A DNA stretch of 64,000 nucleotides, from assembly GCF_000003605.2 (NCBI RefSeq), contig NW_003148281.1:1-64000 (forward strand). The letters run 5' to 3'. This DNA comes from Saccoglossus kowalevskii. Taxonomy: Eukaryota; Hemichordata; Enteropneusta; Harrimaniidae. The position numbers were made by a program, and so were the translations under genes. Positions within the stretch are counted from its first letter, which is position 1; every line of letters begins with the position of its first letter. The notes beneath the pieces are model-generated. The model had not been told where the DNA came from and made no database searches. It was given only the letters and a program-made list of their open reading frames with translations. Shown one piece after another: positions 13,303 through 64,000 of this stretch.

Positions 13303-14285
13303 TATACTTGCTAACTTGTGCGTAGTATATACATGTTATACCACAGATAAATTGACGTGCGTGATATATATTTATTATATCATAGCTATATTAGTATGTA
13401 TGGTATATACACATTATATCATGGTGTGTGTGGTATTTACACATTATATCATAGTTATATTGGTGTGTATGGTATTTACATATTATATCATGATGTGCGT
13501 GGTATTTACATATTATATCATAGTTATATTGGTGTGTGTGGTATTTACATATTATATCATAGTTATATTGGTGTGTATGGTATTTACATATATCATGATG
13601 TGCGTGGTATTTACATATTATATCATAGTTATATTGGTGTGTATGGTATATACACATTATATCATGGTGTGTGTGGTATTTACATATTATCAGTTATATT
13701 GGTGTGTATGGTATTTACATATTATATCATGATGTGCGTGGTATTTACATATTATATCATAGTTATATTGGTGTGTATGGTATACACACATTATATCATG
13801 GTGTGTGTGGTATTTACATATTATATTATATCATAGTTATATTGGTGTGTATGGTATATACATATTATATCATGATGTGCGTGGTGTTTACATATTATAT
13901 CATAGTTATATTGGCGTGTATGGTATTTACATATTATATCATGATGTGCGTGGTATTTGCATGTTATAGCTATATTGTTATGCGTGGGGTGTACGTTTTA
14001 TAGCACATCTATATTGGTGTGCGTGGTGTGTACGTTTTATAGCACATCTATATTGGTGTGCGTGGTATATACGTTTTATAGCACATCTATATTGGTGTGT
14101 GTGTGGTATATACGTTTTATAGCACATCTACATTGGTGTGCGTGGTATATATGTATTGTATCATAGTCATATTGGTGTACGTGGTATATATGTATTGTAT
14201 CATAGTCATATTGGTGTACGTAGTATATTATCGTTACACCATAGCTATAGTGGTGTAAACGGTATATACAAGTTATATCATTGTT
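13303..14285. repeat. Higher-order AT-rich minisatellite (39 + 30 bp = 69 bp)
   Basis: A nearly 1-kb array built from a 39-bp type (GTGTGTATGGTATTTACATA then TTATATCATAGTTATATTG) alternating with a shorter 30-bp type ending in CATGATGTGC. Together they make a 69-bp composite unit over 13390-13970. At about 13980-14140 the pattern changes to 39-bp-only units with CGTTTTATAGCACATC, and at 14140-14260 to a third variant with TATGTATTGTATCATAG. Both subunit lengths are multiples of three and lack stops in several frames, which is why long repetitive frames appear on both strands; they are not genes. Confidence 0.95.
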
Positions 14286-14591: not shown

Positions 14592-16375
14592 GTGACGTGT
14601 GACGCAGGTAGCTAACTTACTTCAAAGAATATGATGTATAATAATACAGGCTTGGTAAACTGACTTAAGACGAGGTTGTATTGGGTTCGTGCTAAAATAA
14701 TGCGTGTTTGTATAATAGTTCATTTGGGAGTTTAACGCCATGAGAGTTTCATTGGAAGGTTAGATGTGCCAAAATAACCTCCGACTAAATGTCTATCATC
14801 TTTTTTTTAAATGATGGTTTGTGCATGCTTGAATGTATTGCCCAAAGACGTTTGTCTAACCACTACCATTAATCATCACACAGCGGAATTTATTTACATT
14901 CGAATCAGATCTCGGAGAAAAACGATTTCTCGTTTGTAGAAACACAATTAAAGCAAGAAATGCCTTCAGCTATTTGCAAATTGAAGTAGAGTTAACCCTG
15001 TCCTTCCTCCTGATATTAACTTGCAGTGTTTTTTTATTTCGTGTTCTCCGTTTTTTTTGGGGGGGTGGGGAAATTGTCATTGCGGGTATTCCTGTCTTTT
15101 GAAAAATGATTTATGTGCCCGACTCTGCTCTAGTTTGCATCCGGCTATAGGCAACGCGATTTTTTTTCAGAGAAACTAGAGACATGTTTACCTGACGTCC
15201 TGGTGTGTACATTACAACTAATTGTCCTGACTTGAACTGTAGCGTTCTTTTTCAGAAAAATGTCGTTGTCTCCAGGCAAAAAGTAAACGTGATATTATAA
15301 ACGTTAAAAAGTTAATTTGTTTCCATCTTCGCGTCCGGTTACCACCCCGAATTTCACATTGTATGGTCGTGAGAAACTTGTGCCCTTTGACCTCATGGAA
15401 TTAATGATATGCTAAATCGTACAGGTGATAACATTTTCGTGAGACGCCCTCTATTGAAACACGGAGAGAGGGACTGGTCATTAATAAAGACGTGTTGTTT
15501 TAAAGGGTTCATTTGTCTGTGTAATTTGTTTAAAAAATAACAGACGCTGTGTAGTATACTTTGTATATTCTGTTTGTGTTCATTACAACATTCCGGGATT
15601 ACACTGGCGTCAAAATACTTGATTGTTTCTTAATGTTTATAGTAATACTATCAAAATGTACATCTCGTAATAAACTCGACTGACGAGGAGGCGTGTTCAA
15701 TTTTTCGCAGTACGCATGCACAGAAGAACCACTCACACGACTGTTTAAACTGTTGTTACTTTCGTCACGTAGCATAGCTGTTATAGGCACGGGGTTGTCC
15801 AATGGACACCCTGAAAGACACACACTAGGGAGACGTTATGTGTTCATAAGTGTATCCATTTTCAATGGGATCTTAGACGGTGGTACGCGGTAGCATGGAA
15901 TTTTTCTCATCCATTTGACGTACGCATTGAAGCCATGTGTTACGTGAAACATAACCGGGTTCCGGAGTCACCTCCCGGGGCGCTGGGATCATATTCAACG
16001 CTAAGAGAAGCCACGCTTCTCAAGTGTGTGCTATTTTCCCACACCTCTCTGTTGCATTCTGCAGTCATTTTGACTGCCCTCTCTGATTTATCCGTTTCAA
16101 GTCCAGAAGCGCCTAAATTAATTTGCAGCACGTCTCAAGGTCATGTGAGGTTAAACGAAATTGCTATACGACCATTCACATTTCTAATATGTTTATTAAT
16201 AAATTATCTGTTAACTTAAAATGGCCTATCATTTTTTTTAACTTTATTGTATGTGCGCTGGTTTCATTTTGCTCATATATTGCATCAGTTTGTGGCAAAT
16301 CAAATAACTTCATTGTTGAAGTTTAAGTTGCTGTTGCTGTTCGCAAAGAGCATGACGTTACCTCTTAACAGAATA
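14592..16375. other. Intergenic DNA without recognised genes
   Basis: No gene recognised. Contains G-rich and T-rich runs near 15040-15070 and one strict Su(H) octamer on the - strand at 16036-16043. Short open frames at 15.6-16.3 kb overlap on both strands without recognisable content. Confidence 0.55.
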
Positions 16376-16383
16376 GTGATCGC

Positions 16384-16546
16384 CAGTGGCGGATTCAGAG
16401 GGGGGGCAGGAGGCAATGGCCCCTCCCAAACGCATGACGATTCATATCATCTGGATTACGCATAGCTTCTCTGCGATTTACGCTCCATATATCTTAAGCG
16501 AAGCTTGGACCCCCCCCCCCAATACATTTTGCTGGATCCGCCACTG
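16384..16546. mobile_element. hAT MITE with intact 8-bp target duplication
   Basis: A 163-bp element beginning CAGTGGCGGATTCAG and ending CTGGATCCGCCACTG, i.e. 15-bp terminal inverted repeats with one mismatch, followed inward by G runs (left) and C runs (right). It is flanked by identical 8-bp duplications GTGATCGC at 16376-16383 and 16547-16554. An 8-bp duplication plus CAGNGGCGG ends is the signature of the hAT superfamily. It has no transposase, so it depends on another element. The clean duplication suggests a fairly recent insertion. Confidence 0.92.
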
Positions 16547-16727
16547 GTGATCGCGCGACTTGTGTTGCAATTGCCAAGCAAATGATGTGATTCGCAAATG
16601 GGATAATTAAACAATTATTGCGTGCCACGTGCATGTGTGTTTTCGCTATAACCCCAAACTGCGCAGTAATCCAGCTGTGATTTAGTGCGAGGTTCGGTTC
16701 ATTTTGACAAGACTACAGAAATGCCAT

Positions 16728-16743
16728 GATGATGATGATGATC
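16728..16743. repeat. Short (GAT)n microsatellite
   Basis: About five GAT units in a row. Confidence 0.8.
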
Positions 16744-16872
16744 CAGAAAAAATAGTTTCGTAACAACCGGCGTGAGCCTGGATTTATGTGTGAAAGCATG
16801 TTTAATTAATATTCGTAAGAAGCCCAATTTTATCTGAAACCGCATCTTGATCTTCTAAAGAGAAAAAGAGAG

Positions 16873-16922
16873 NNNNNNNNNNNNNNNNNNNNNNNNNNNN
16901 NNNNNNNNNNNNNNNNNNNNNN
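16873..16922. other. Assembly gap (50 N)
   Basis: Exactly fifty N characters, the usual size for a gap of unknown length, so distances across this point are not reliable. Confidence 0.99.
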
Positions 16923-19900
16923 GATCACGTGGCATTCTCGAATCGACACAGTATTCTACGGCGACGACATTATCCAGATGGCACACACGAACGAGCATGA
17001 AATCCGTCTACCCTCCAAAAAACTTACGTTTGACAACTAAATGTAATATTTCACTGGTTTTAGTATACGTGTTACGGACGACCATCAACGTATCTCGTGC
17101 TGGTTCTCATATTTTCGTCACGGTCAGAATGCATCTTCATTGAAACATTAGTAAATATCGTGTGTGGTACTACCATAAACTTGCTTCCTGAAAACGTTAA
17201 CCTTAAATGTTATTTAAGGTGGCCTACATGTATCTATAAAAGCGCTTGTGGTGATTAGAGTCTCGCTGAGACCGTGGGAAAACCAAATATCGAGCGCGGT
17301 AATTTGCCCGTGCAGACCCCCTTGACCGGAAGATTGTGTATGTTATCAGTGTGACCCCCGGATTACGGAGGTGGTCTCTATTGCATTGTAGGGGAGTTGT
17401 CTGAAATCGGAGCTAGCACCTAGTGCACCTTGGAATTTATTGCCATACACTAAACATTAATTGTACTTACTTTGCAGATGGGTCAAATATAGATAAATTG
17501 CGTAGCGAATATCGCATCTTTTTCCTATTTATCAAGCATTGTGGTGCGTCTCAGTTCACTAAGATTTAAATGCGGTGTCATCTTTCATATGCAATAAGCG
17601 TATTTCGTTGTGGTAGGGAGTGACAGCTCCAGAAACAGACGCCAGTTTCCCGCCAAAAAAAAATCGCACAAACCGCACGCTCATGGACTCACGTACTAGT
17701 TTGATTGGCGTAATTTTTAATCATAACATTTCCCTGTATTTTTTAAGTAAGTGAGTCGCGTGGGAAATCTTTAAATTTGCCGTGCTTTGTTTAGATAGCG
17801 GGAAGGTCGACCAAGAGATTCGATCTGGCTGGCACGCGCCTGGCTTGAGGGAAAATGACTCGTGTAAATGGGTATGGGCAAAGTGCCTAGCACGCGAACA
17901 CACTGCCAATAAACAATCCGCCTATAATTCGACCCAGTTTTACCACGTAACTCGATATACTATATCGCGTTTTAAGTCAGCACGATGGCGACCACAGTGG
18001 TGGAAGCGGATGCTCAGCATTTACGCGGGAATCTAAGGCACATAGACGTATAAATATTAAATGTCATCACATACTCAATATAAACTCGCGCAGTCCGGCC
18101 CGGGCGCCAGGATGCGGCCGTTGGTTATGCTACGTGTTAATAAACAGATAAAAGTACGGCTATAATTAATACAAATGGACTGTGGGAAGGTCTGTCTGGA
18201 AAGATCAACTATACAATACGGATAAAACACTAAAAACAACGCCGTCGTTGCTGGCTTATTCCGTGGTTTCCTCCTCACAGCAACTACAATAGGCCATTGT
18301 AATGTTTACATGCCGACACAAAACAACCTTAACAAGGACAAAGAGGGTGATTATCGTCACGTGACTGGTCTATTGTTTCCCTCCTTTGTTTGCTTAAGCA
18401 ACTCCTCGTTTTCAACGGTGTGTTGGAATTCTCCTCTGATCGGCCGACAAAGAAGTTAACAAGAAAAGGCATCCTTCACCGGCTCGGCAGGTGTTATGCT
18501 ATTAAATTTCCCTGCGCGTCTCTTGTGTCATCGAACTCGCTGTCCATTTGCTTTGAAGATCACACCGCTCCACGCAGTATTTTATAACGGCCAACTGCCT
18601 GGACAATAACTCAATATAGGAAGACGTCCCATTTATTTTCTTGTACGTTCCTGTGCAAACTAATCCCGCCTTCCAAGACGTATAGTCATTATTGACAGTT
18701 CCACATTCTTCGCGTGTGTGTCATGAATCCAACGTAATCTCGTTTACGAATGTCTTACGTCGCCAAGTTAGTTTGTTCACCATAGTATAATAAGTTTTAC
18801 CGAAGCCCAGCATATTGAATAAGTAATATAATTTCAGTTACTGCATTCTTAATAGTTTGACTATGAAATAAATTGAAACAATAAAGTACCTTTTAATATC
18901 TACTTATCATACAAAGTTCACGGTGTATCAAGCCACGATTCACAAGATAATCAGACTGTTGAACTGGTGTACACACGGCGACCCACTCGCTTGGCAAGTT
19001 TTTTTTAAGTTTGTTTTAGATAGGAACACGTATGTACTTGTATGCGAGAACGAACTGAAATGTGACGGGCCTTTGAAATCATGCTATACCATTTCATTCG
19101 AAAATACATACATATCCGTGTTGCCAGGGAAACGTTCACAACACGAAATAAACACGCGCCAAAATCACGACAACGCGTTACAAATTAGACAAAAAGTCAA
19201 CATAAACAAGACCAGACATGAAACAGGCTTGCTTTAGTGATAAAAAGACCGCCAATCAATCGAGTTATTATCTTATGTACTGTTAGCGATCGATCTCATG
19301 AAATTTACAATCGCGATTTAAACATCGGGGGTGTCGCCAACTACTACTCTGTTGTTGACGATGTACCGATGGGTGAGTGGCATAATCTATTAGGAATCCC
19401 AAAGACCGTGTGCTAGAAATTAAGGGCGAAAATATTTCCCATTCAGTTTTTCATAAGGTAGCATATAGTGGGCGTACTGTGGGGGTGTACTCACTGCTGG
19501 GCGTTCATCGCGTCGTCGTTCACCTAAACGAGCTGTGTACACTGCTGCGCGTGGCACCCCCGTATTCTGAAACTTTGCCAAAGATACCTGTCATAACGGG
19601 ACCAAGCCAAGTTACCAGATAAGGGCACGCGGGGACCATTTGTCACCAGATAAGAGTGCGAGAATCACGTGGAAATAAAAAAAAACATGGCTAAATACAG
19701 CCTAAACTCTTCTTTATATATTACCCTTTGGTCTGTTTGACACGTGTCGAGTCATATTGGCACGCGATGGCCGTGCGCAGGACAGCACGTAGTTCAGTAG
19801 AATAGCGGTGAGCGTGTGTACGAATCTTTGTGTAGTTCGGTAGAAAATTTCAGTTTTGAGGTAAATTATCGTCAGTGTAATATTTTTTCTCTCTAATAAC

Positions 19901-29156: not shown

Positions 29157-30453
29157 CTACCAGGGTCTCCATACAGACTCTGACTCGGTGGGCACGACGT
29201 GCTGCGCGAGAACAGCTGGTTTTACTTGTACTTGCGTTGTCACTGGAACAGGAGAAGTTGTTGCCTGGTACGCAACGGGAGCGAGGGATCCTGCCATCGG
29301 ACTCACTGCTGACGAACAGGCGGTGTATGATGATGTCGTTGTTGACACAACTGGGCTGGCGAGACTAGATTCCGTACTTGTTGGGCTGCCGAGCGATGAA
29401 ACTGGACTCAGAGCAGGTGTACCGTGTGCGTAAACTGGGATGAAGTGACTGGGTATTTGTCCGCCTGGGAGGGTTTGTGGCGACAAAAGAACGGCAACTT
29501 CGCCGCTTGGTAGATTTCCTGGCATGACTGGGAAAAGTCTGGCCATTGGCGAGTTAGCTTCTAGCTTAGTTGTAATGTTCGTTGTTTGGACTGACATTGT
29601 GGGCTGTGAAACTTGAAGTTGTGTGGGTGATGTTGTGGCGATACTGGTTCCCTGTACCGACGTGACGGCAGCTTGAGCGGCGACTGGCGAAGAAGCTTGG
29701 TGAACCGTATAATTTTGGCTCATATTTTGACAGCAGTTAGCGAGATGTCCAAGAAGACGTGAGCGGGTATCGGTACCGACACCTTCTACGCTGGTCAGGT
29801 AACGTTGAACTTCGCCGAAGCATTCATTGAATCCAGCTCGGTATTTGCTGAGAACGGTGGGATCTTGGTTGAGAGCAGCTCCCATTTGTTGCCTCTGTAC
29901 GTTTTGAAGATATTTGACAGTCATCTCCAAGATATCAGCTTTTTCCAACTTTGAGTGACGAGAGCTCTATAAAAAAAATAACAGGAATATATATTTAGTG
30001 ACAAGTTCCGAGAGTATACACGGGAAATGCGATATACTAGTATGCGGAGATCATAGACACGGCTTGACGCAGTATAATGCAGTCGAGGCGCCCGATGAAT
30101 GGAGATACCAATACAGTGCAGTCCATTGGAATGTAAGACACCGTGAGAAATGAGGAAGCAAAACCAAGAATACTTACATCTTTTTTCATTGCATCAAGTA
30201 TCAGAGTCTTCAACTGAGAAAGACTTTCGTTAATTCTAGCACGTCGCCTTTTCTCCATGATAGGTTTGGAGGACTGTAAGAGAAAAAAGAAAAGATCATA
30301 AGTACCTGTTGTGGATAGATAACTTGGATCATTGCAAGTTATAACACGATTTTAAAAATAATTGTAGAAAACGGGAAAAAAAGTTTGTAAATTATAAGGT
30401 AAACTTACTTTGCGGTTTTCGCTAGCTTTGCTGGCTGGCTTGTCTGCAGGCAT
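29157..30453 (-). CDS. Hairy/HES family bHLH-Orange transcriptional repressor (Hes1-like)
   Basis: Three exons on the - strand: 30453-30409, 30273-30178 and 29966-29157, all joined between codons (phase 0) with GTAAGT donors and CAG/TAG acceptors; total 316 residues. The start ATG ([15 protein letters not shown]) matches the family N-terminus. Residues 16-71 form the bHLH. The basic region [10 protein letters not shown] carries the family proline (P19) that gives N-box/class C DNA preference. Helix 2 includes [20 protein letters not shown]. Residues about 88-127 are the Orange domain ([10 protein letters not shown], then RLLGHLANC). A Ser/Thr/Pro/Gln-rich tail follows, and the protein ends in WRPW (313-316), the Groucho/TLE recruitment motif. 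In the family this is a nuclear dimeric repressor, a direct Notch target that blocks neurogenic bHLH factors and represses itself. The vertebrate Hes1 intron after the bHLH is absent here: the last exon runs unbroken from helix 2 to the stop. The family assignment is certain; the exact paralogue is not. Confidence 0.97.
29967..30177 (-). other. Hes intron 2
   Basis: 211 bp, donor GTAAGT after MKKD, acceptor TTTTTTTATAG before SSRHSK. It sits at the position in the HLH loop where vertebrate Hes genes also have an intron. Confidence 0.95.
30274..30408 (-). other. Hes intron 1
   Basis: 135 bp, donor GTAAGT after ENRK, acceptor TCTTACAG before SSKPIMEK. Same position as intron 1 of vertebrate Hes1. 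Confidence 0.95.
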
Positions 30454-30567
30454 GTTTGTATGGAAATAGTGTTACACTGGGTATATGAAAAGTAAAGCGC
30501 TGAGATTGCGTGCGGTCACAAAGAGATAAACACGAAGTGACTCGGTGAATGTCTGTGTCCGAACTAT
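30454..30567 (-). other. Hes 5' UTR (predicted)
   Basis: The start site is inferred about 30 bp downstream of the TATA box, near 30567, giving a leader of about 114 nt. A TATGGGAA (weak Su(H)-type match, + strand) overlaps the inferred start at 30565-30572. No upstream splice site is needed, because the TATA box lies so close to the ATG. Confidence 0.6.
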
Positions 30568-30590
30568 GGGAATGTGAGGTTGGTGTTTGC

Positions 30591-30597
30591 TTTTATA
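30591..30597 (-). promoter_or_regulatory. Hes TATA box
   Basis: TATAAAA on the - strand in the context GGCTATAAAAGC, about 140 bp upstream of the start codon. Vertebrate Hes1 also has a TATA promoter with the Su(H) site pair just upstream, as here. Confidence 0.85.
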
Positions 30598-30619
30598 GCC
30601 GTTTCGCATGCGAACGGCT
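30597..30619. promoter_or_regulatory. 23-bp near-perfect palindrome between TATA box and Su(H) pair
   Basis: Arms AGCCGTT(T)CGC and GCGAACGGCT around a central GCATGC-like core; only a one-base shift breaks the symmetry. On the gene strand the left part reads CGAGCCGTTCGC, directly next to the Su(H) site. A 12-bp piece, GCATGCGAAACG, recurs at 30851-30862. It may be a binding site for a dimeric factor. Confidence 0.6.
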
Positions 30620-30651
30620 CGTGTGAATTTTTTTGGCAATATATTCCCACA
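30620..30651 (-). promoter_or_regulatory. Su(H)/RBPJ paired site (SPS) of the Hes promoter
   Basis: CGTGTGAA at 30620-30627 and TTCCCACA at 30644-30651 are two Su(H) sites in head-to-head orientation separated by exactly 16 bp, the spacing known for Notch-dimer paired sites in E(spl) and Hes1 promoters. On the gene strand the order is TGTGGGAA, 16 bp, TTCACACG, then AGCCGTTCGC, which agrees with what I remember of the mouse Hes1 promoter in order, spacing and the flanking block. It should make the gene a direct, cooperative Notch target. Confidence 0.92.
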
Positions 30652-30671
30652 CCGCATTCTTGTACACGCAA

Positions 30672-30788
30672 CCAATCAGCGCTGAGCTGCTGCCTTATTT
30701 GCATGAGACGTGTGGTATGGGCTCGCGACCACTTAACACTGATTGGCTGAGGTCTAATAGAGCCTATTGTATGCCGCGCCGTGATTGG
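30672..30788. promoter_or_regulatory. CCAAT boxes and POU octamer upstream of Hes
   Basis: Three CCAAT/ATTGG pentamers (30672-30676 on +; 30742-30746 and 30784-30788 as ATTGG, i.e. CCAAT on the gene strand), the first and third in the wider ACCAATCA or GATTGG context expected for NF-Y. A perfect octamer ATTTGCAT (POU/Oct type) is at 30697-30704. Together with the TATA box and Su(H) pair these outline a compact proximal promoter. Confidence 0.65.
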
Positions 30789-30891
30789 TGTAGGCGTTGG
30801 TAGCTGTCAATCAGGCGTGTGTAATTAGCACTGACAGTTGACATCTGTTGGCATGCGAAACGTTAAGTGTCAGCCCATTATCTCGACCAAG

Positions 30892-30897
30892 CACGTG
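30892..30897. promoter_or_regulatory. CACGTG box (possible Hes autoregulatory site)
   Basis: A palindromic CACGTG in the context AGCACGTGCC, about 300 bp upstream of the TATA box. Hes proteins bind class C/B boxes (CACGNG) and repress their own genes, so this is a candidate feedback site; other bHLH factors bind it too. Confidence 0.45.
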
Positions 30898-30938
30898 CCG
30901 TTTCCTTTGTCGTCGTGCTGCGCTGAGCGTGGTCGATG

Positions 30939-30946
30939 TGTGGGAA
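30939..30946 (+). promoter_or_regulatory. Upstream Su(H) site
   Basis: TGTGGGAA in the context ATGTGTGGGAAAACC, about 290 bp upstream of the promoter pair. It is a strict single Su(H)/RBPJ site. Confidence 0.6.
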
Positions 30947-31159
30947 AACCCCGCCCACAGCAGTGGCGAGAAGGCATATTGTAAACAAGCATTTCATATG
31001 TAAACAGCCCCGCTCCGTAGCACACTCTTCAAGCCAAAGACCAAATATATTATTGTATTGGATTGCGACGACGACAAATCCCAGAATTCCACTGGTGTCA
31101 TGTGTCAGAACTCCGAGTTCCATCACTCGCTGCTTTCCCATTCATGTTAGATTGTGATG

Positions 31160-34100
31160 GAATGCACGGCTGTTAGCGTCGAAAGCCTTACCCATTAAAT
31201 GCTCAAAACGCGTGGCGTTGGAGACCCCTTCCGTGGGATGTGTTTACTTTATCTTGCGATCTTTCTGAATTATACTACCCACGGTACTTACACATACACG
31301 GTGGAAAACAGAACCCTACTCGTACTTTGTACATTTTAATGACTACGCTTTTGATGAGTTTGAGGTCGGGCAATTTAACACAGGAACAATACAGGTAGAA
31401 TCACGGCACACCTGAAATCTCGATCTGAAATCTGATCATAACACGACTATAGAAGTAGCTTGTGCGCACACTCCGGACAAGAGACTCTTACGCTCTGCCC
31501 CCATGTATAATGCATGAATGGCCTGTCACACAACTTTCGTTTGTTCTGCTGAGAATTTTCTCACGGGTCGCCTTTTCAGCTTTCCCACTGTCGGAATGCA
31601 ATGGAACCCGTTATAAACATTCTTATGCGGGCTTCCCAAGTGCTCATACAGGATACGTCGACAGCCGGTGGCCAGAACCCTGGTTTTCTCAATAGTTTCC
31701 TAAATTTTCCCACGGATACTCCGCTTGCCGCGATTTTATTATAATTTAGATTTTTTGTGGATGGGGTTCGATATGGTCGTAGCATTTCATTTCTTAACTG
31801 TTCAGAATATGTTTTATTTTCCGACTTTTTGCAACCCCCCCCCCCCTCGCACCCAGCTACATTAGTGGTACCCCGGGAATCAGTCCAATCTCAGGCCTTG
31901 CAAATCACGTATGTCGCAGGCACGTATCGCGCTGCGTAGGAACAACTTTTCAGTTCTCATTGGCTATTTGACGAATTAACGCAAAATATGTTTTTAAACA
32001 GAGAAATGTTTTGTTTTTTCTCTCGCTTATTTGAGGGTTTAAGTGTTGACCCGGGGTTAATGTGCACAAGCCGTTAACAGGTGATGGGGGGATAGCGCGT
32101 ACTGTCCGTGTACTTGTTACTGTTAAAGTCGGTGCACTCATAACAGGTGCAAGTGCATTGGTATGTTCCCCTGTAATTGGCTTACGCCCAAACTCGCACT
32201 GGCATATTACTCTCACTCATTTGTGGACGCATTTATTTCAATTACTTATTAAAAAAAGCAAAACAAATAATTTCTTTTATCTTTATATTTAGAATAGCAA
32301 CAATCATTTTAAAATGTTAGAAAAGAAGTTGTACATGTATTTCTAAATTTCTTTTTTTTTAAACGGGGTGTTTAATACCCAACCAACGGAAGCAATACAT
32401 CCGATGATGCAATAGAAGTTTTTTTCACACGTTGTGGTGTTGTTTTCCTTTGGAGGTCATGGGAAAGTAAAAAGGGCAATTGTTGAAGCAGTATAAAAGT
32501 GAGATTTGTATATGCAACGCAACACTATACGCACCGACTCTACCGTGATGGCTACCGTTCCAGTCACGCTTGTAGCCAGCCACGACACGCCACCCCCGTG
32601 CTTTCCGCGTATATACGATGGCAGCGATTGTCCATCAAACACGTCTATATGCATATTATTGTTTTCGCTAACAATTATTCTTCGACAAGCAAGACACATT
32701 AGTATATAATGCAAACACACTTTGGGCGTGTAATAATAATCGTACGGTAAATATTGCATTGCAGCAAGGTTGTAGTACATCTTGCCTAACTCTGCAACTT
32801 CGCCCTTTTTTCGCCGCACCGGTGCTTATGATCAACCTGCAATTCTCGTTTGTTTGTTTTTTGTTATTTTATTTGAACATGTGATTTTTTTTATAAACGC
32901 GTTTTATTGTGTATAGGTATGGATGTACTCCAGCAATTAGTGCGATAACTCACCTACATGTCAACCGCTGCGTCAAAAAACTTTTTCTCGGATGTTTCTA
33001 CTTTTGAAAAAATAAAAAGTAGTTTTTTGTTTTTGTTTTTTTTTTCACAAAAAGGGAACTTGAGAAGAAAAAAACTGAGAGTGAAGATGAGATTTGTTTT
33101 TAAGAAGAGCGACGTGACATCTGGTGGGGTGGAGGAATTTTCTAACTGTATTGGTATGTGGGATGGGAGTGAAGTGAAAGAACGCGAGATCGCAGTGCGT
33201 GGGAACGTGTCCCCCGATCCCTTTATCTACTGGTATTGACTCAGCCTCATAGCGTCTATCGTATACTCTTTGAATAAGAACAATGAACATGCTTATGCCA
33301 GTATTGTGTGCAAGCTTCGTTCCCACGGTGGTGTACAATGGTGTCCAATTCATATGCAAAAAATTCAAAATGGCGGGAAGAAGCCAAGTGAATGTGTTTC
33401 CTAATCATTCGGCCATTGTTTCCTCGCATGCCATTATACGGGTTTACTTTTCTCGTAACAAAACGCCTATACGGTGTGGTCACGTGGGTCCACGTGCCGT
33501 TGCTCTTCGTACTTTCCAATAATTTCCCATCGACCACGTTCCGTAACTATTAGCGCATTCCAATACAGACCAAATCAGGATAAGCACTCAGTCGTGTGAA
33601 CAAAATATAAACCCATCTTTTGTTTTTTCCCCGATTATATTTGCTCTTGCATCAGTGGAGCGACCGTGAAAGCGATCCCCATCCAAGATTTTCAGTACAC
33701 CTATCTAAAGAATGAACGACAATTTGTGTCTTCTTTTAGTAGTAATTACTAATTTAGTACGCTCGATAATGATCTACTTAATTCGACATCCGACACAATG
33801 TCCCAGTCGGAAACTTTCCCACAAGAACAGTTTGGGTCTGATGGCCCTCCGCTAAGCCGGCGACATGTAAAATGCGCGAAACTTGCAAAGCAATAACTTG
33901 CGACAACATTGCCGTTCTATTTATCAAAATACAACATTGTGCACTGAGCACATAACCTATATCTAATTACAGTTATCGAAACGATAATAACACCACCATA
34001 CTACACAGACACGTAATTTACAACGTGCACGACTAAGTTAGACTCAAACAATTATTAAAAAAACAAAAAAAACGGGCAGCTGACTCGAGTTTGGTGGTCG

Positions 34101-36500
34101 CATTTTACCGTTACATAAAAAAAGCTTCGTATATGAAAACGGAAAAATCCATATTTTCTTATATGTGCGTATTTTATGATGCGAAATGTATTAGACGTAT
34201 TCGACAGAAGGGAGGACCCTATACGACGCTGGCGCGTGTCTGTATAATAAGTTACCGGGCGACTGCTTGGGGGCATGGCCTTTCCCACAGGATTCTAATG
34301 AAAGACTTCCGAACGACGCTACGCGAGTAATCATTGTAGTTACGATTTACGGACGTGTTATCCTTATCTTAATAATTCCTCACTACGAGACGTTTGGACA
34401 GAGTTTATGACTGATACCCGCCTATAAGCGTACACACTCGTTCGCCCTGTCGCAATACACTGCAATATATCATTCCACCACGCTCCAAGTTTACCACGCA
34501 CTCGTTCCCGCTGATCGCACAAACATAACAAATCTCGTAGTATAAGGCATTATTTTTGGTAATTTCCTAAACATCGTATTTGTTATTTATTCTGACTATG
34601 CGTGAGTGTTTATCTCCGACTCCCCGTTATATGGATTGTTATCGCTTAGTTGCAAAACAAACCAACTGACAAACAGTCTACACAAAACACGCAAAACGCA
34701 CCTCTATTGATATCCCGCGATCCGTGAACACAACCACAAAGTTAGCACAAAGTTTGATATTCTCACCACGTATATTTTCAGAGGGGAAAATCGTTTCACG
34801 CAACCCACCCGAGAGTCGATATTTCAGTCCTACCACCCTGTTATTTGCCAATGACAACGTTTCGAAGGATTGTCTCTTTAAAAAAAACACATGGGAAGAG
34901 CAAACACATTAGCCTCACTCTGGAAGTATGTTGATACTGAGAAGTGTACCGCTCAACTCATTGTTTTCATGTTTATATAATGTATTTTAACATATTTACT
35001 CATGATATCAACGGCATCCGGGCATCTAAGATACTAAGAAGATCACGCTCTTACAATGTTTTTCGTCTCACCCAACACGTCAAATTAAATATTCAGTAAA
35101 TTGAATCAAAATTGAGTAGAACAAGAACCGTTGAATAACTCATTTTTTTATTTGTTTACGAAAATCCGTAAGGGGTTCTTCCATTATTGTATTTGCAGTT
35201 TTCGACTTTTCGCCGACTTTTCATAAATTTAGAAATAAAACACGCATTTGTTCAATTATCGGAGAGTACTGCCACTCGCTATTACTGCCACTCTCTATCG
35301 TCATGACAACGACATTAGTTCTCATTTCTGTATCACGAAAAATGAATATATTTCCTTTGCTTGGAGAAATGACGAGAGCTAAACATTTGGGCAGATGGCC
35401 GGATGGTCGGATAAAATCAACATGTGAAATTTATTAAAATGATTGGGGCACACATACGTATGTTGTTGTTGACGCGTGGCTGGGGCCTTTCCTACGCACC
35501 TGCGTAATGCTCTTACACGCACTTCCGTTTTTCTTTTGTATGTTCCTCCACTAAAGACAGACAGGGGTCGCGACCTCTGTGAAGTCTTATGTCCGATGCT
35601 GTTGCTAGGCGCGACTCACTTGGCGTACAATTCGTTGAGATGTTCATGGAACATGCATAGAAATTTATCGTATGCGTTTTTTTATATTATTTAAACGATA
35701 TATTCCAGGGTCAAAAAGCAGTTTCACAGCTGGGATTTAACCGGGTTTCGTGCATTGGTCCCAGAACAGCAAAAGATCTCGGGGGGTTCTTGGGGTCCGC
35801 CCCCCCCCCGTTGAAATTGTTTTTCAATTTTTGTATAATATAAAAAAATCATTAACTTAGGCGATTTTAAAGTTTGGATAGCGGTTATTTTCGGGTGAAT
35901 ATTATTCTACGTAGTCTACACCCAGGAATGACTAATTCTCACACACATGTCGAATTTGTAATATAACGGTAATTGACTTCAGTTATTGTTTAAATTATTC
36001 CATATCATTTACTTCTACTCAGGTTATAGAATGAAAATTTATCTCCACGCCGTAATGATGCAGAGATGAGCAAATGGCCATGCATCCATGATAAAACCTA
36101 ATAATGATTAGGTCAAGTAAAATAATTTTGATGTTTTCATGGTTATTTTTGTTAAATGAGTTGCAGCCTTAGGTATTTGTAAACATAATCAGGTGTGAAA
36201 AATACACCTAAGTTAGTTTTCAGAATATATGCATGGAAGGAAAATGCGACATTGGTGGAATGGCCATATGATAGCAATTTTACGGAAATAAATCATTTTT
36301 AGCTGATTTATATGAAATAAAACTTTTCAATTTCCAAAAAAAAAGAAAAACTATATTTATTTGGCCACGTGATATGCAAATTTTATCGATTAATTAACAT
36401 ATAAATAATGTTATTGGTTCTAAGATTGATTTTTCCAGAAAGATTCTCTGCACAAATCTCAAATTTTACTTAGACACAATGCGGATTTATAATGTTTTAC
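31160..36500. other. Gene desert upstream of Hes, part 1
   Basis: No exon recognised. Besides the Su(H) octamers it holds a pair of CACGTG boxes 10 bp apart at 33481-33496, a C run at 31838-31847, T and A runs, and a G/C-run remnant at 35776-35811 (GGGGGGTTCTTGGGGTCCGC) that resembles the interior of hAT-like repeats. Confidence 0.5.
33481..33496. promoter_or_regulatory. Paired CACGTG boxes one helical turn apart
   Basis: CACGTG at 33481-33486 and 33491-33496 separated by GGTC. They are within 160 bp of two Su(H) octamers (33198 and 33320). They could bind bHLH dimers, including Hes itself. Confidence 0.45.
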
Positions 36501-36501
36501 T

Positions 36502-36515
36502 GTTACCATGGTAAC
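36502..36515. promoter_or_regulatory. Perfect RFX X-box palindrome
   Basis: GTTACCATGGTAAC, a 14-bp perfect palindrome that is the ideal RFX-family X-box (GTTRCCATGGYAAC). Confidence 0.6.
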
Positions 36516-39500
36516 CTCAAATAAGTCGCCAACACCACACTACTACAACCGCATATACCCCGGTCATGCACGCCATCGACTCGGGACAGAGCTTCGCCGA
36601 GATCGATGTCCATGGTATTACTGTACTGCGTGGAGTTCGCGGGAAACTATTTCATCTCATTGTAGATTACTAAGTAGTCAAAGGCGAAGCGCATTTTGTA
36701 CGGAAACGGTTCGTCTAGTAATCATCTAAGGAGGGCCATTCATTTGATTGTGCTGCGGTGGGAAAAAATTCGAAACACGAACAGATCGGATATTGGACGA
36801 TAATGTAAGACGTCAAAGTTATGCGATTACACAAAAGCAGGAACTTCAAGGCTTAGCTCACGCTCGCACACGAACTATACACGTGTACAATCTTTTTCAT
36901 TTTTTTTTTAAATTATACTTTTAGCAATCCTGGGAAAATAATTTGACGCCAAAAATTGAAAATTAAAAATCAGTGGTAATTTTTCCGCAAAAAACCTTCC
37001 ACTTTGACAATCGAGTGACTAACAGATATTTTGTATAAATCGGAATACCCAACTGGTAGAAACGAGCGGATAGCCACTTAGGTTCGCATTCGGTTACTAT
37101 AGGTTCCGTACCGTCGGAAAAATGACATAATTAATTTGTTATTCAATCCAACAAAATCATTTTATATCTAGAACAGATTTGATATGTGCCTCTTAATTAA
37201 AAAGATTATTCCCGAACTGGGCATGTACTTAATCGACGAGCGGGTTCCGAAAGTGATGACACCCGTAAAACGATTAAACGAATCCACGGCTTTCAATAAC
37301 TGTTTCATCTCCACAAGAAAAGCGTGCTTTAACTAAATTTTAAATAGTCTATCCGTGAAACAACTGCTTTGCGAGTTTTAGATGTTATAATAATAGAGTT
37401 GGTATGGGAATTATGTGCACAAGAATTCAACAGAAGAAGCGGTGTGTTATAGCCATCGGCATTTGATCTATCTGTGACCGAATAAAGGCTATCTGCTATA
37501 TAGGAGGAACAATGGGGACAATGCAGAGCCACCGTGGGAATACTAGTAGATGTCGTTCCATTGTAGGCACACGCAAGACACTGCTACCGGTCCAGATAGC
37601 CTGTAATCTCTCGGCAGTGGCGTTTTGCACACCACCTCCGACGAAGCGTCTTATCTGTTTTGTTCACCCGGCTGCATGCGATCAATTGGTTTACGTGGAA
37701 GAACCAAACACATGACTCATCACCTGGTGGCCGCACGGCAGTGCTGAGAATAAGTAGAACAATACAATTCACCTGCAATGGCAGAAAACATAGATTTCCA
37801 CCCTGGACAATCACAGGCGAATTATGAATAATTCTCATCAATAACATACTGTAACCATGGGAACGGTTTCTTTACTAAAACACAAACAAACAATGCTGAT
37901 AGAACTATAGCGGCCTGCCTTGTTTTGTTTTGCCATTGTTTTCTTTCATTTCATTTTATTACATTATAACAGTTTTATGTAATTCAAACATGCATCGTGT
38001 GATTTGATTTCCCACGATGTTCGAGCAAAGATAATGTACAATACTTCTGGTCATGGGGCATCATTTCTGTTCAAGCGATTTTAGTGAAAAATGGGCATGC
38101 AAAACGAAGAAATTGTAAATCTTCGATTGAACCACAGGTAAAAAAAAGTATGTATTCCGATCAGCGTAAAATATACGAAATATCACGTGACATGTTATGT
38201 TATCATCATTTGAATGAAGCGGTGGGTGGAAGGAGTGGTACGGACAAATGTGAAAAGAAAGTAAACACAGGCGGAGTGTAATTACATATACACGGTAGCC
38301 ACTATTCCTAAGAGTGTCATTGCTCTCTAAACTCGCCATTAAAATTGTTATAACATACGAGTCCTCTTTGTGCAATGAAGTCGTTATTTTTATTCTTTTT
38401 GCTAGAAAGTACACACACTTGTCGTTTACTTGTATCGCCGCGTCTCGCATTGTCTGGTTACCGACACCCAGACTTCTGCCACCGCCACTTGAAACGCACA
38501 CACTGCGGTGAAATGCGTTATGACATGGACACCTCCGTGGCAATGATTTGTGTACATTATCACAACAATCGAAACTTTTCTTTTTCCGTTTTCGAACTTA
38601 TCCCTGAAAATCATCATCGCATTTTTGCAAGTGTGCTCGAAAGTGGGTAATAATAAGACAGTCTCCTCTACTTGGATTTCAAAGTAAACGATCAGTCCCG
38701 ACATTGTTATGATTGTCTCTTCACAATTAATGCTCATCCTGTGGTTTAAGCGCGTGGGAAACGGACACCATATCGATCGAATGAATGTCCAGTTTCGTCC
38801 GAGTGCCTATTGTCTCTTTCAAAAGTAGGCTTTATCGTCGTTCTTTTGATTCAGGTAAGAAGTCGTTAAGAAGACGGACTGTGGGAATGCAATTGGTTTT
38901 ACCATATCGATAACTAAAGGCTCACGAAACCCAATGAAATTTAACATTTTAAGAGATCTTCTTACGATGTTAAAAACGCCCGGTTTAAAAATCCAATTTG
39001 GTGATACACTGGACAAACGGCACCATCTAAACACTGATACTTATTATTACAGAAATGAAAACGAAACCTTATATAGAACTTGATAAATTAGCAAATTTGT
39101 TGTTGATCTGTGTTCAAACAAATCTGGGGAAGGGTAATGTCTTCTGACAAACTCAACTATTTTTTCCAAATTCTGTTTAATTATCAATAATTTAATTTTC
39201 CCATTCAAAGTAACACATACATTATTTCTCTCGTCATTATTTTTATTTTTATTTCAACTCATTGGACGCAAAGAATGGTAAGATATAGGTGTTGTTGGTG
39301 TACCCCCAAGTTCAAGTTACTGCACGGACTGTCGGTGGGTTTGGATAATCAATTACACCTCCAAACCATGCTTCCCGCTAGGCGAAACTCGTTGCGCGTA
39401 GTTTTCTATGCATCACATTGTCGCACTGTAATGACCCGTTGCCATGGCAGCAAAATCCGTTGCGACAACCAGGTCTGATTTTCTGATCACACGAATTTAA

Positions 39501-41396
39501 TAATGTATATATCGTGCCTGCGCGGTTGCCATGACGACATAGACACGTGTATGTCAAGTGTGGGACTCCAGTACGCATTGACGCATGATATACTAGTACA
39601 TACTGAGTCAAGGCGCTCCCATTACTTCACATTCACTGAGTAAGAATAAAATAACGGTTAATACCACACAACCCCCCAAAAGATTTATTAAATTCCAATC
39701 TATGTATATCAACACATTTATCAGTTTTTTTTAATTGATATGATCCATTTCATGGTGACATATGTTGTTTTCTTTTCTGTAAATATTGTGTCTCGAGATT
39801 TTGAACGTGTAAAAGAAAACTGGTCTCGGAGTTATATACATTCGTGTCCATATTTCTTTTTGCATTGGACGACTTTTGTCGTGTACTATTTTTTCGGAAT
39901 TTTCCGAAATAGAATTCTTTCACTGATTAACACCATCTCGGTGTGTGTTTTTTTGTTGTTTTTTTTTTTTTTTGGAGCGCAGTCCGAATTACTGCACTCT
40001 TGGTACCATCGGAATTAGTCAAAGAATATATTAGATATAACGGTAACATTAATTATCATACATGTCTCTTTCAGGACGGCATGGGGTCTTTAATCTTGAA
40101 TTGTTATATTAAAATCATATTTACAAACGTCTATGATAATGCGTAAGATATCCCAGTTTGATTCGAATGTTGTTGATTTTTGCTAATGGTTTTGCAGGAG
40201 GGGTGGTTGCCGGCAAAAATGAAACGAATACCTGCATACCGACGTTGAATTGCCACCTGTTTACCGAGTATGGCTCTGAATTCCGCAACTCGGTAATGGT
40301 ATTCTGGCAACGACCATTTAGTACCGTACTGCGCATAGAAAATCGTAGGCTGTAGGTCGTGGGAAAGTACGCCGTTCAGACCGCTAGATTTGAATTTGAA
40401 TTCTCCACCACTCAATGGGCGCCCTTTGGGACGCTGCTAAAGGCTTCTAATTGGGTGTTCCCTCATGAGTCCACAAACACAATGTGAGTACCGATACATT
40501 CCTGTTTTTAATATCCAATCAATAGTGCGTGTGCGTGTTCGGCGTAGATGCGATATGCTGCCAAAGGCGGACCAATACCTTGACAACGGAGGCAAACATT
40601 CCCACACTACCTATCCCTAGCACAGCGTCTCAATAAATAAAATCAAAACTGATAAATAAATAAACCGGAGCCGGAACTATTTACGTTTTTTAAATGAATT
40701 AGAACATGGATGTACTAAGAACAAATCCTGTTAACATTCAGTATTCCAATTTGTATATTTTATCTCTGTGATATATATATGTATTACAATTTAGTGATGT
40801 TGAGAGGGTCGTTCCGTGGTCAAATAAGCTGCTATCTGTTCTGTGATGCGGTATTACTACATCTACACACGTATATACGTGGAATGAAGCACTGTTGCGG
40901 TGAATTCTGGGGAGCAGGGAGTCATGACAGGTTCTACATCATAATTATATTTCTGTAACAATGCGTGAGTTCACGTAGATACGAATGTTATCCTATTTAT
41001 TTTGAACTCTGTTGCCAGTATAACTTCAGGATGTGATTTGAATTTGTATGAAAACTAGCTGTTTTAAAATGGCGGACTGATACATTTAGCAGTCAACAGT
41101 TATAGCATTGCCATTGGAATTTTCAACATCTGAGGACGTTATTTACTATTTTCTTTAAAAACTGGACTTTTTATTATTCAAAAAAAATAACTTATTGTTT
41201 GTTTGTGTAAAGCTCTGCGTTTTTAAGTTTTTAAACTTTCAGATATAGGGAAATTAATTGAAGTTGTAGGGAGTCGTTACATTAATGCAGAATACATTCC
41301 CCAGTCAGGAACACACATATTCTCTAAATAATTCTTGATTCATAGCTTTGAACGTGTACGCTAGCGTCAAGCATGTCCATTCTATTCCACATATGT

Positions 41397-41410
41397 GTTC
41401 CCATGGTAAC
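41397..41410. promoter_or_regulatory. RFX X-box-like palindrome
   Basis: GTTCCCATGGTAAC, one base from the ideal X-box. It overlaps a CATGGGAA, a weak Su(H)-type match. Confidence 0.45.
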
Positions 41411-44400
41411 ATCACAGACGGTGAGTGAGACACTTACATCGGGCATGACCTGTACGCACCTTAATTGTTTCGAGACTTTATCGCCCACGCATTTTGTTTT
41501 TATAAATGCATGCAACTCAAATTATTGTTTTCTGAGTAGTTGCTTTGTCCCATTTGTATGCGACATATAACCTGTCGGGTCATTTTCGTTTCCGCCAGTA
41601 AATTTACGAACCTGCAGTAATACAAGATGTGCGACCAGAACCAAGTTGTTCTTTCGTTTTTATGACAGTACAGAATAACACCATAATTTAATTCTGACGA
41701 TGCAGAAATTGGTCCAAGTGAAAGCGTTTGATATAATTGCCACACAGATTTAACACGAACCGCATGAACCGTATTTGTTTAGTCTATTCGCTTTGTGGGA
41801 ATGCAGCCAAGCTTACAATTTTTGTTTCCCGTGACAGTAAACTTGAATTTAGTTAGCTCTCGTAAATCAATTTGATTTGTGTAGTGTCACCAGTATACAA
41901 ACTCACGTGCTCAACTATCACGTCAATGGAAGAGCAGCTGGGCTCTTATTTTTTGATGGATGGGGTTCCGTCTTAAAATTGTGAACTTCCGAGAACGATT
42001 AACGTCCATCGTGAGACCCGTCTGACGATACTAGGTTGCGAACCACGTTGCGTATACACTCACTGATTACATGGGTACTGTAGACATATTAATGTTATTA
42101 TAATGTTAATATAATTTATCATACTCTACAGGCCGTAAGTGCAAGTCAAAACAAGGAAATCTAACCACATTATAATCATCGAGGAAATATAGCTATGACG
42201 TCATTAATCGAAATTATTGCCAGGGTTCTGATGCCGTTGTAAACGTTCTATATGTTGGTGTTGACCTCATTATTGTCATTATTCCGTCCACTTGTACATA
42301 TGACGTCACTAGACGGAGACAGCCCTTGGCCCTCTTTCTAGTCAACTGCAACTTAGAATTGTTCCAATTTGCGTCAAATTAGTCCGCACTTTGGGCAATT
42401 TACCGTCCAATAAATTGTAACGAGGGTAATTTCGCCAACATGGGGGACGCCAGCAAATATGCTAAGCATGATTAGAATGTAGTGTGTAGTCTTTAAGTGA
42501 CGATCGGGATGAGTTGGCGCGACGTTACCACAGCCAACGAGGAGACAAGACGACGACACCAACACGTCGCTTCTTTTCTTTTATAACTCGATTAGAATTT
42601 CTGTTAACTGACATTTCAGGTGACGTCACCCATGTAAAAGTGAACTAAAAGAGTGGAATTTCGTATACACAATGTGGGAAATGGCATTTAAGGTACGAGA
42701 CTGAGGCATAAATTCTGGTTATAGAGGTAACTTGACAAATTCCATCGTGGTGCTAATGTAGCCATTAATTCAAAATTAAAATATCAACTTTTGTTTTTTA
42801 TTTTTCATGCAGAAACTTCCGGATACGGTCCGAATAATATAAGCAGCCGGCCGGGCAGGGCACAAATTACCTCTAAAACATGGTAATTAAACGAAGAATC
42901 GGATGTCTGGTTTATACCAAACTAATAACTCGTTTCATTTACAGCGGATGGACGCCCGTCAATGATGCGTTATTTTGGGCTATCTATTGAAATGCCGTAC
43001 ATCTTTTTTGCGGTCAAGCAGAACGTTCGTGGGAAAGTGTGCTTGGCATCGGTGACTAAAATGTCGCAACAAACAACTTTGAAAACATGCCTGTGAGTAT
43101 TTCCAGGGACAGTAGCGCCCCCAGCTATTTTTCTTCACAGGCGAAATATCGACCATGTCATTATACTTACAACATTGCCAACGAGCTAAAATCAATCGTT
43201 TTGTTTATGTTAATTAATAATAGAAAACAAAACAATTAAAATTAAATTGATCGATCACCATGCAAGTTAATTAATCAATGAACGCGTCATATGTGAAGGA
43301 AATATTACACAAATGCTAAAGTTTGCAGATAAAATCCATACGATATGGATATGTCAACTATCGCGCGGAGATATATTGAGTGATATGTATGATATTCAAA
43401 ATGGAATATTATATCGCAGAGATTTGAAACTGAAATGATAAAATTATTTACTTATTTACCAATTTTAAACCAAATGCATTTTAGCTGAAAGTCATCATTC
43501 GATCTAAGTTCATTCCCGGACTTGTGTGGCTGTCGTAGCAAAATACTAAATTCACTCAGTATTTATATGGATTACTATGATGCTGATAACTCGTTTCAAG
43601 TAATCAAAGCCAATTGAAATCAAGATTAAACTTTTTTACGAAAGAAATCACGAAGAACCAACAGCATTCATCGAAATTCAATTAACAGGTGCTGGCGGCG
43701 ACGGCTCGCCATTCTAACAACTCAGAAGTGTCAATTTTCCCACGGAAACTCAGCAATTAGGCGCCTCTAACTGATGCGGATTTGCATATTACCCGCCAAC
43801 TATGACGTAACACCAATTAGGTAGCAATTTGATCGAATGGGTACTGTATTGAAATGTTTAATCATACGTGCACTCTCAGTGCCATGTCATGTGATTTAAA
43901 TGTCTGCATTGTTTTTATCTCATTGTTTAAGCGCTAATACTTTTTAGTCCTCCACGGCTAATGGACTGGGGATTATCCCACAGACAATTGCCTGCACGTT
44001 TCCTGTCACGCCACATACCACGGTGAAGCTTGCTACGAATATCCACGTTTTTATCGATCACATTAATATTCCGAGCAATAAAAAGCCAAGCATTTATGGT
44101 CTGTTTGATATCAGTGCTTGACGTTGATACATTAACAAGTATATGTGGAGAAATTCTAGTCGTACTGCACAAGTGAGGAGAAAGAAAACTAGTATGGGAT
44201 GAGATGTGAGGATTAAACAGTTGTCACTTTAATACCTGGAAGAAATCATGTTAAAACATTGACGAAGAGAAATGTATACGTGTTTAGATACACGCACAGT
44301 CACGTCGGTTTACGCGGGGAAAAAAAAAACAATGCATGTGCCTTAATTAAATTTAACGTAACCTTAGCTTTTGTAATATCCCACAAAACTACTGTCCATG

Positions 44401-63755: not shown

Positions 63756-64000
63756 CACCAACAAGTGTATGGTCACCAGCATACTCACCCATCAAAAAAT
63801 GTTATGTCGTCACCAATAAATGTACTCACCCGTCAACTAATTCTATATTGTCACCAATAAATGTACTCGCCCATCAACAAAATATATGTCGTCACCAATA
63901 AATATACTCGCCCATCAACAAATTGTATGTCGTCACCAATAAATGTACTCGCCCATCAACAAATTCTATGTCGTCACCAATAAATGTACTCGCCCTTCAA
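63756..64000. repeat. 41-bp minisatellite running off the right edge
   Basis: About six head-to-tail copies of a 41-bp unit (core GTCGTCACCAATAAATGTAC then TCGCCCATCAACAAA). The first copies are more diverged and the last nearly identical, so the array is probably longer beyond the window. Confidence 0.95.

Follow-up and report, generated by a model that had tools for sequence, protein, structure and literature searches.

The RBPJ motif is short and occurs frequently, which makes Notch target genes hard to recognise from sequence. In the available passages of the papers cited here, the top-affinity CSL motif is given as [T/C]GTG[G/T]GAA, with CGTGGGAA ranking highest (PMC4176381), and an SPS is defined as two CSL sites placed head to head with a gap of 15-17 bp, 16 bp being preferred (PMC7685452). 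Drosophila Hey and E(spl) enhancers carry several single or paired Su(H) sites upstream, near bHLH-Orange genes; for Hey, three upstream and four intronic sites on short fragments are described (PMC11353301). In mouse cells, clustered RBPJ input is linked to Notch responsiveness, and overlap with enhancer clusters is more frequent for RBPJ sites that are signal-dependent. These clusters were defined by ChIP and acetylation, and the signal-dependent sites follow a relaxed TGRGAA motif in which both purines are equally frequent (PMC11109962).

The locus described here is a known kind of element and an unusually dense and long example of it. It shares with the Drosophila enhancers the several Su(H) sites upstream of a bHLH-Orange gene but has 17 strict sites (YGTGGGAA) over 13 kb, and unlike the mouse clusters it was delimited by strict octamers in sequence alone. 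The window, i.e. the whole 64-kb stretch of DNA that was analysed, contains Hes as the only gene detected. The gene and its promoter comprise the following features.

29157..29966, minus strand: Hes exon 3 with the end of the bHLH domain, the Orange domain, the C-terminal WRPW and the stop codon (open frame, Pfam)
30178..30273, minus strand: Hes exon 2 with the basic region and helix 1 (tblastn; frame and AG/GT borders checked)
30409..30453, minus strand: coding part of Hes exon 1, 15 residues (tblastn; frame and donor GTAAGT checked)
30591..30597, minus strand: TATAAAA box (sequence)
30606..30627, minus strand: 22-bp block TTCACACGAGCCGTTCGCATGC (alignment to a mammalian Notch reporter fragment, PMC4391858)
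30620..30651, minus strand: Su(H)/RBPJ paired site, TGTGGGAA-16 bp-TTCACACG, head to head (partner search)

The protein encoded by the three exons matched the Pfam families HLH (3.4e-15) and Hairy_orange (1e-16). Its start codon lies at 30451-30453 on the minus strand, and transcription would start near 30560-30570. A second gene was not found in the window by means of the open reading frame list, residue composition, Pfam searches with 10 high-ranking segments and Rfam. Likewise, a search of the genome for further close Hes genes at E 0.001 matched solely the window's own copy. The genome encodes an RBPJ-type domain, with RBPJ BTD exons present on contig C214.

The strict site next to the promoter has a weak head-to-head partner (30620-30627) which matches seven of eight consensus positions. 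With its gap of 16 bp the pair has the layout of an SPS; this is a real pair that the first-pass annotation of the window had overlooked. The mammalian fragment likewise has TGTGGGAA, a 16-bp gap and TTCACACG, and from TTCACACG onwards 21 of the 22 bases of the block are identical in the two sequences (PMC4391858). The block aligned with a score of 39, whereas none of 200 mononucleotide shuffles scored above 32. We take the reporter fragment of PMC4391858 and the SPS oligonucleotide of PMC5410256 to be the mammalian Hes1 promoter; the source passages do not name Hes1. The similarity extends beyond both RBPJ sites, as the 14-bp block that follows TTCACACG agrees with the mammalian fragment at 13 of 14 positions. 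The locus has a Hes1-type arrangement, in which an SPS closely precedes the TATA box of a bHLH-Orange-WRPW gene. The spacing to the TATA box is 22 nt here and 23 nt in the mammalian fragment (PMC4391858). GAAAGT, which is part of the mammalian spacer, is absent here because the two 16-bp spacers differ. One literature match to Hes1-promoter words proved to be an unrelated IRF6 primer, and a study of annelid Hes genes contained none of the regulatory terms looked for (PMC4172395).

Genome-wide (572 Mb), the pattern YGTGGGAA-N15-17-TTCNCACR was found at eight places including the Hes promoter, three of which, again including Hes, have a 16-bp gap. Three forward and seven reverse matches to this weak-partner pattern stand against two and two for the reversed control, so that most of these places may be due to chance. 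Hes homology was not found within the 3-kb locus around any of the other seven. An SPS with two strict consensus sites occurred at two distinct places in the genome; its matches were as numerous as those of the reversed control, for which reason an SPS so defined was rejected as a used element.

The promoter site is the first of 17 strict YGTGGGAA sites that form a field on the upstream side of Hes (30600..43750, no strand assigned; supported by density, 7-mer rank, and Markov and scan tests). The octamer scan located the remaining sites as follows.

30939..30946, plus strand: strict site TGTGGGAA
31707..31714, minus strand: strict site CGTGGGAA
33198..33205, plus strand: strict site CGTGGGAA
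33320..33327, minus strand: strict site CGTGGGAA
33816..33823, minus strand: strict site TGTGGGAA
34282..34289, minus strand: strict site TGTGGGAA
37533..37540, plus strand: strict site CGTGGGAA
38009..38016, minus strand: strict site CGTGGGAA
38753..38760, plus strand: strict site CGTGGGAA
38880..38887, plus strand: strict site TGTGGGAA
40358..40365, plus strand: strict site CGTGGGAA
40599..40606, minus strand: strict site TGTGGGAA
41794..41801, plus strand: strict site TGTGGGAA
42673..42680, plus strand: strict site TGTGGGAA
43028..43035, plus strand: strict site CGTGGGAA
43737..43744, minus strand: strict site CGTGGGAA

An exact scan of both strands detected 25 YGTGGGAA octamers in the window, 17 of them within the field and eight elsewhere. 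These are precisely the counts reported in the first-pass annotation, and all eight positions printed there were recovered. The excess over shuffled background that it had anticipated was also borne out, since 100 dinucleotide shuffles of the window contained 3.5 octamers on average and nine at most. Markov models of order 1-5 predicted 3.6-11.9 sites per window, and models of order 1-4 trained outside the field predicted 0.7-1.5 sites within it. With 17,126 copies in 572 Mb, 0.39 sites would be expected in the field at the genome rate, which the observed 17 exceed 43-fold. The eight sites outside the field correspond to a 5.3-fold excess over the same rate. Conditional on 25 sites in the window, finding 17 in 13,151 bp had a scan-test p of about 2e-5; at three scales of up to 2 kb no excess clustering was detected in the window. 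When 13,151-bp windows were started at each of the first 100 genome matches listed, none of them contained more than three sites.

The enrichment is specific to one word. GTGGGAA ranked first among the 5755 7-mers occurring in the field when enrichment was compared with the rest of the window, with the 21 one-base neighbours of the motif present in 0-5 copies each and the 104 other anagrams in at most four. Other CSL-type words were barely enriched (YGTGTGAA, three inside and five outside the field). YGTGAGAA occurred only twice inside and seven times outside, which contrasts with the equal purine usage of the mouse TGRGAA sites (PMC11109962). The 6-mer TGGGAA was found 29 times inside and 29 times outside the field; 19 of the 29 inside copies belong to GTGGGAA, which is preceded by a pyrimidine in 17 of 19 cases, and a G follows the octamer at none of the 17 sites.

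The sites are not copies of a repeat, as the first-pass annotation had stated: the flanks of the 17 sites are mutually unrelated, and comparison with about 0.3 Mb of this genome revealed no repeat match over them. The outcome was unchanged when the window was divided in the same way as the other stretches compared. In none of these stretches is a run free of detectable repeats longer than the one that contains the field (25605-59355), and the field has the far-above-background, non-repetitive site density expected of an extended Notch-responsive enhancer region. The close pairs to which the annotation drew attention exist but are not special, given that five of the 16 gaps are shorter than 400 bp versus 6.5 expected. 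Pairing as a design feature of the field was rejected because the gaps are no shorter than random. Apart from the promoter site, none of the 25 sites in the window has a partner of at least 7/8 at a 15-17 bp gap, and the field can therefore not be called dimeric. It contains no array of paired sites, its sole SPS being that of the promoter.

Site density was further compared between two expected Notch targets, Hes and a Hey-like gene (contig C2445), and two other Orange-domain genes. Upstream of the Hey-like gene, 10 strict sites span 9.76 kb from first to last (34-fold over the genome rate), and a 10-kb piece chosen before inspection contains eight (27-fold). The two other genes have one strict site in 60 kb and one in 70 kb, respectively. 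As the Hes field occupies the longest repeat-free run found, so that of the Hey-like gene occupies the second longest. Unlike Hes, the Hey-like gene is without a full paired site, the best candidate being a 6/8 partner at a 15-bp gap (140238). A G at position -10, present at 12 of 17 Hes-field sites and at one of 12 Hey sites, was judged to be chance because it is not repeated at Hey. TEAD (GGAATG) and Runx words, which appeared raised in the Hes field, were dropped since the 10-kb piece at Hey did not show this, and no convincing companion k-mers common to Hes and Hey sites were found.

A smaller group of four strict sites (16036, 17273, 17759 and 18181) was noted downstream of Hes.

16036..18188, no strand assigned: group of four strict sites downstream of Hes

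At the genome rate 0.06 sites would be expected in this interval, which was picked after the fact; against the window's own density the group is unexceptional (2-kb scan, p 0.53). Judged by its sites, it is possibly a second Notch-responsive element of Hes.

Very probably, as far as sequence can tell, the 13-kb region is Notch-responsive control DNA of Hes that consists of two parts, a dimer promoter switch and a field of single sites. A long Notch-driven control region is the most likely reading because of the site density and the near-identity of the promoter block with its mammalian counterpart. The essence of the first-pass proposal, an extended Notch-responsive region of Hes, is supported by the motif rank, Hes being the sole gene detected, the pattern at Hey and the RBPJ domain; its detail of pairs is not. 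The first part would be a Hes1-type core promoter composed of the head-to-head paired site with its 16-bp gap, the 22-bp block and the TATA box, at which two NICD-RBPJ-Mastermind complexes would bind jointly and cause Hes to fire. The second part would comprise the 16 further top-affinity single RBPJ sites, reaching 13 kb upstream and probably representing several enhancers. When there is no signal, these sites may hold RBPJ and co-repressors; once the signal arrives, each would recruit activator complexes independently of the others, and Mastermind and Mediator would accumulate locally over the field and act on the promoter. We infer RBPJ binding, responsiveness, Hes as the target, and the additive or hub-like action.

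Real RBPJ sites might instead serve mainly for repression or as a sink for complexes, forming a silencer or buffer that keeps Hes off without Notch and sets a threshold, activation being left to the promoter paired site alone. The lack of pairing among the 16 promoter-distal sites fits this explanation, as do reports from flies that the activator complex is cooperative on paired but not on single CSL sites and that paired-site reporters resist the Hairless co-repressor more than single-site ones (PMC8494340). However, the single-site reporters in these passages were weaker yet Notch-responsive, and in fly Hey enhancers Notch-dependent expression relies on several Su(H) sites (PMC11353301). A role as sink is opposed because, in the passages available, a Notch-loss phenotype in flies arose from added paired sites and not from single ones (PMC7213981). 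We regard the silencer or buffer explanation as unlikely. Control of a gene outside the window, either in place of Hes or in addition to it, is less probable still. The contig (C3856) extends to 181,789 bp, and the field stretches away from Hes, but it starts at the Hes promoter itself, the same layout is seen upstream of Hey, and past the field sites are sparse (one in the remaining window, at 49447, and three in 64001-94000).

Ownership of the sites by a different factor with a TGGGAA-like core, such as an Ikaros-type zinc finger, would account for the enrichment of the 6-mer, but it is at odds with the predominance of GTGGGAA among the copies, with their flanking bases, and with the promoter copy being part of an RBPJ paired site; we consider it highly improbable. 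Chance, base composition or repeat expansion has next to no probability. The rest of the window is somewhat rich in sites too, and across the genome YGTGGGAA outnumbers its reversed form 1.7-fold, but shuffles, Markov models, neighbours, anagrams, the genome rate and the genome windows listed all contradict chance, and the unrelated flanks and the lack of a repeat match over the field (about 0.3 Mb compared) speak against repeat expansion.

Returning to Notch-responsive control of Hes, the near-identity of the promoter block with the mammalian fragment would, if the animal is not a vertebrate, as its Hes protein and genome size would indicate, represent a deeply preserved signal-response promoter, and the 22-bp block, if preserved since a distant ancestor, would allow a clean test of its role. 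At Hes the motif comes first in an unbiased ranking of words, and it is dense again at Hey, which suggests that direct Notch targets might be findable from the genome alone. More tentatively, and with considerable doubt on our part, a readable code may mark the direct Notch targets of this lineage. It would consist of a dimer promoter of the Hes1 type, preserved almost unchanged in sequence since a remote ancestor common with mammals, plus a repeat-free field of about 10 kb or longer of single top-affinity RBPJ sites without fixed spacing, orientation or partner motif. Such a field, exemplified by both Hes and Hey, would work as an additive signal integrator or hub in which site number sets response strength. 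If this were true, field density could suffice to call direct targets in a single genome.

The window encodes a Hes protein with HLH and Hairy_orange domains and a C-terminal WRPW; nothing else in the window resembled a gene, with Pfam run on 10 high-ranking segments. The coding exons of Hes were located as follows.

30409-30453, minus strand, Hes coding exon
30178-30273, minus strand, Hes coding exon
29157-29966, minus strand, Hes coding exon

As Hes is on the minus strand with exons in 29157-30453, the field of Su(H)/RBPJ (CSL) octamers at 30600-43750 lies upstream of the gene, where the first-pass annotation had placed it. An exact scan detected 25 strict sites (YGTGGGAA) in the window, 17 within the field and eight elsewhere. 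Both numbers agree with the earlier hand count, and all eight positions printed there were recovered. Dinucleotide-shuffled versions of the window contained a mean of 3.5 and a maximum of 9 copies (100 trials). Expectations from Markov models ranged from 3.6 to 11.9 copies per window for orders 1 to 5; the order 6 expectation (23.6) is necessarily high because that model has learnt the 7-mer itself. In a scan test conditional on 25 sites, the occurrence of 17 inside a single 13,151-bp stretch had a p of about 2e-5, whereas no extra clustering was found in the window at scales of 500, 1000 and 2000 bp. The strict sites form a broad field rather than tight knots.

The contig whose initial 64 kb make up the window measures 181,789 bp, and the genome totals 572,110,611 bases. 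Genome-wide, YGTGGGAA occurs 17,126 times (8142 + 8984), and the same octamer written backwards, used as the reversed control, occurs 10,105 times. The field is enriched 43-fold, since the genome rate predicts 0.39 sites and 17 were observed; the eight sites outside it correspond to 5.3-fold. Among the first 100 genome matches listed (contigs C1 to C9, 3.25 Mb from first to last site), 13,151-bp windows starting at a site held at most three sites each. Downstream of Hes, four further strict sites occupy 2.15 kb at 16036-18188 (0.06 expected at the genome rate, the interval being chosen post hoc); this group is possibly a second enhancer of Hes.

When the region was compared with the rest of the window, GTGGGAA ranked first among its 5755 strand-collapsed 7-mers (19 in, 8 out; p 3.4e-8). 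Seventeen of these 19 copies are YGTGGGAA, and both window copies of RGTGGGAA also fall in the region (27 GTGGGAA in all). Octamers one base away from YGTGGGAA (21 in number) each occur 0 to 5 times there, and none of its 104 other anagrams occurs more than four times; YGTGAGAA occurs twice inside and seven times outside, YGTGTGAA three and five times. YATGGGAA, which we take to be a weaker CSL-like word, is mildly raised in 30600-43750 (5 in, 4 out). The base 3' of the octamer in the field is A in 10 cases, T in 5, C in 2 and G in none; around a Hey-like gene on contig C2445 it is A in 8 and C in 4 of the 12 sites. The CSL motif of highest published affinity is given as [T/C]GTG[G/T]GAA, with CGTGGGAA at the top (passage in PMC4176381). 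The 200-bp flanks had nothing in common beyond short matches (21-24 bp) and stretches where the flanks of adjacent sites overlap, which bears out the earlier view that the sites differ in their flanks and are not copies of a repeat.

Read on the minus strand, the strict site at 30644 is half of a head-to-head paired site consisting of TGTGGGAA, a 16-base gap and TTCACACG. Its partner is absent from the first-pass annotation and was found in this analysis. Apart from this promoter site, no 7/8 partner at a gap of 15-17 was present at any of the 25 window sites or the 12 around Hey. In the genome, YGTGGGAA-N15-17-TTCNCACR occurs at eight places (3 forward and 7 reverse matches; the reversed control gave two of each), three of them with a 16-bp gap; both numbers include the Hes promoter. 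No Hes homology was found within the 3-kb loci of the other seven places. One of these, C2389:143915-143946, is another 16-bp-gap paired site ending in TTCACACG, again with no Hes homology within 3 kb. A gap of 16 bp is preferred in transfected cells, and the Hes1 partner site has been termed slightly non-consensus (passage in PMC7685452). Near the promoter, 30672-30897 contains CCAAT once and ATTGG twice (at 30672, 30742 and 30784), as well as the octamer ATTTGCAT at 30697. CACGTG at 30892 is a possible Hes self-binding site.

The promoter was also compared with a mammalian Notch reporter fragment, which we take to be the Hes1 promoter. From the second half-site onward, TTCACACGAGCCGTTCGCATGC is identical to the printed fragment at 21 of 22 positions, 18 of them consecutive, and the TATA spacing after TTCACACG is 22 nt at Hes here versus 23 nt in the mammalian fragment (passage in PMC4391858). 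The alignment scored 39; when the fragment was mononucleotide-shuffled 200 times and aligned over the whole window, the maximum was 32. An oligo sharing the same start is termed SPS (passage in PMC5410256). The passages from PMC4391858 and PMC5410256 do not themselves use the name Hes1 for this sequence.

A loose first search, which sets a lower bound, detected at least four Hairy_orange genes in the genome, the window Hes included. The gene at C2445:146908 has a bHLH and a YRPW-type C-terminus and is Hey-like on these features, its name following our assumption that such an ending marks Hey. A 10-kb piece covering its start and upstream DNA (C2445:137001-147000), chosen ahead of any site count, contained eight strict sites, 27-fold over the genome rate. 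Between the first and last site of the 9.8 kb upstream (C2445:134889-144637) there are 10 (34-fold), and the full 70 kb examined holds 14 (6.7-fold). At the genes on C1798 and C367, where the sequence is partly N, one strict site was found in 60 kb and one in 70 kb, and no WRPW or YRPW ending was present in the frames seen. Dense sites at Hes and Hey and not at the other two agree with the prediction of a Notch-target reading, in a small sample of two versus two. An RBPJ-type BTD domain is encoded on C214. Judged by its Hes protein and the size of its genome, the animal is probably not a vertebrate.

When the window was compared with 308 kb of this genome, no repeat match at 1e-5 was detected over the field, and many were detected in the remainder of the window, chiefly its left part. 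All-against-all comparison of the stretches showed the longest run without detected repeats to be 25605-59355 (33.75 kb), which holds both Hes and the field. The second-longest (17.99 kb, C2445:127655-145643) is at the Hey locus. The ranking was unchanged when the window was divided into 10-kb pieces, which brought into the comparison within-window matches whose omission could favour the window. That the Hes and Hey fields lie in the two longest of these runs is suggestive only, because the comparison library (308 kb) is small. Minisatellite arrays are located at 1-538 (52-bp unit), 13353-14257 (mixed units of 27-143 bp) and 63782-64000 (41-bp unit).

Both RBPJ enhancer clusters and paired sites in Hes promoters are already known. 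No published description of a comparable field was recognised in abstracts and passages of the open-licence literature, and absence is not claimed. What the sequence shows is a specific excess of the motif, a paired site, a promoter that matches the mammalian fragment and a parallel at Hey. A role of the field as a sink for NICD is less likely, because in flies a phenotype arose from added paired sites and not from single ones (passage in PMC7213981). As a control region of Hes, the field would be kept off by RBPJ and co-repressors and, on signalling, be converted by NICD and Mastermind. The promoter pair would serve as a cooperative switch; single sites would add non-cooperative input, as binding of the activator complex to such sites is non-cooperative in flies (PMC8494340), and they may seed a Mastermind hub of the kind described in fly nuclei (PMC11087053).
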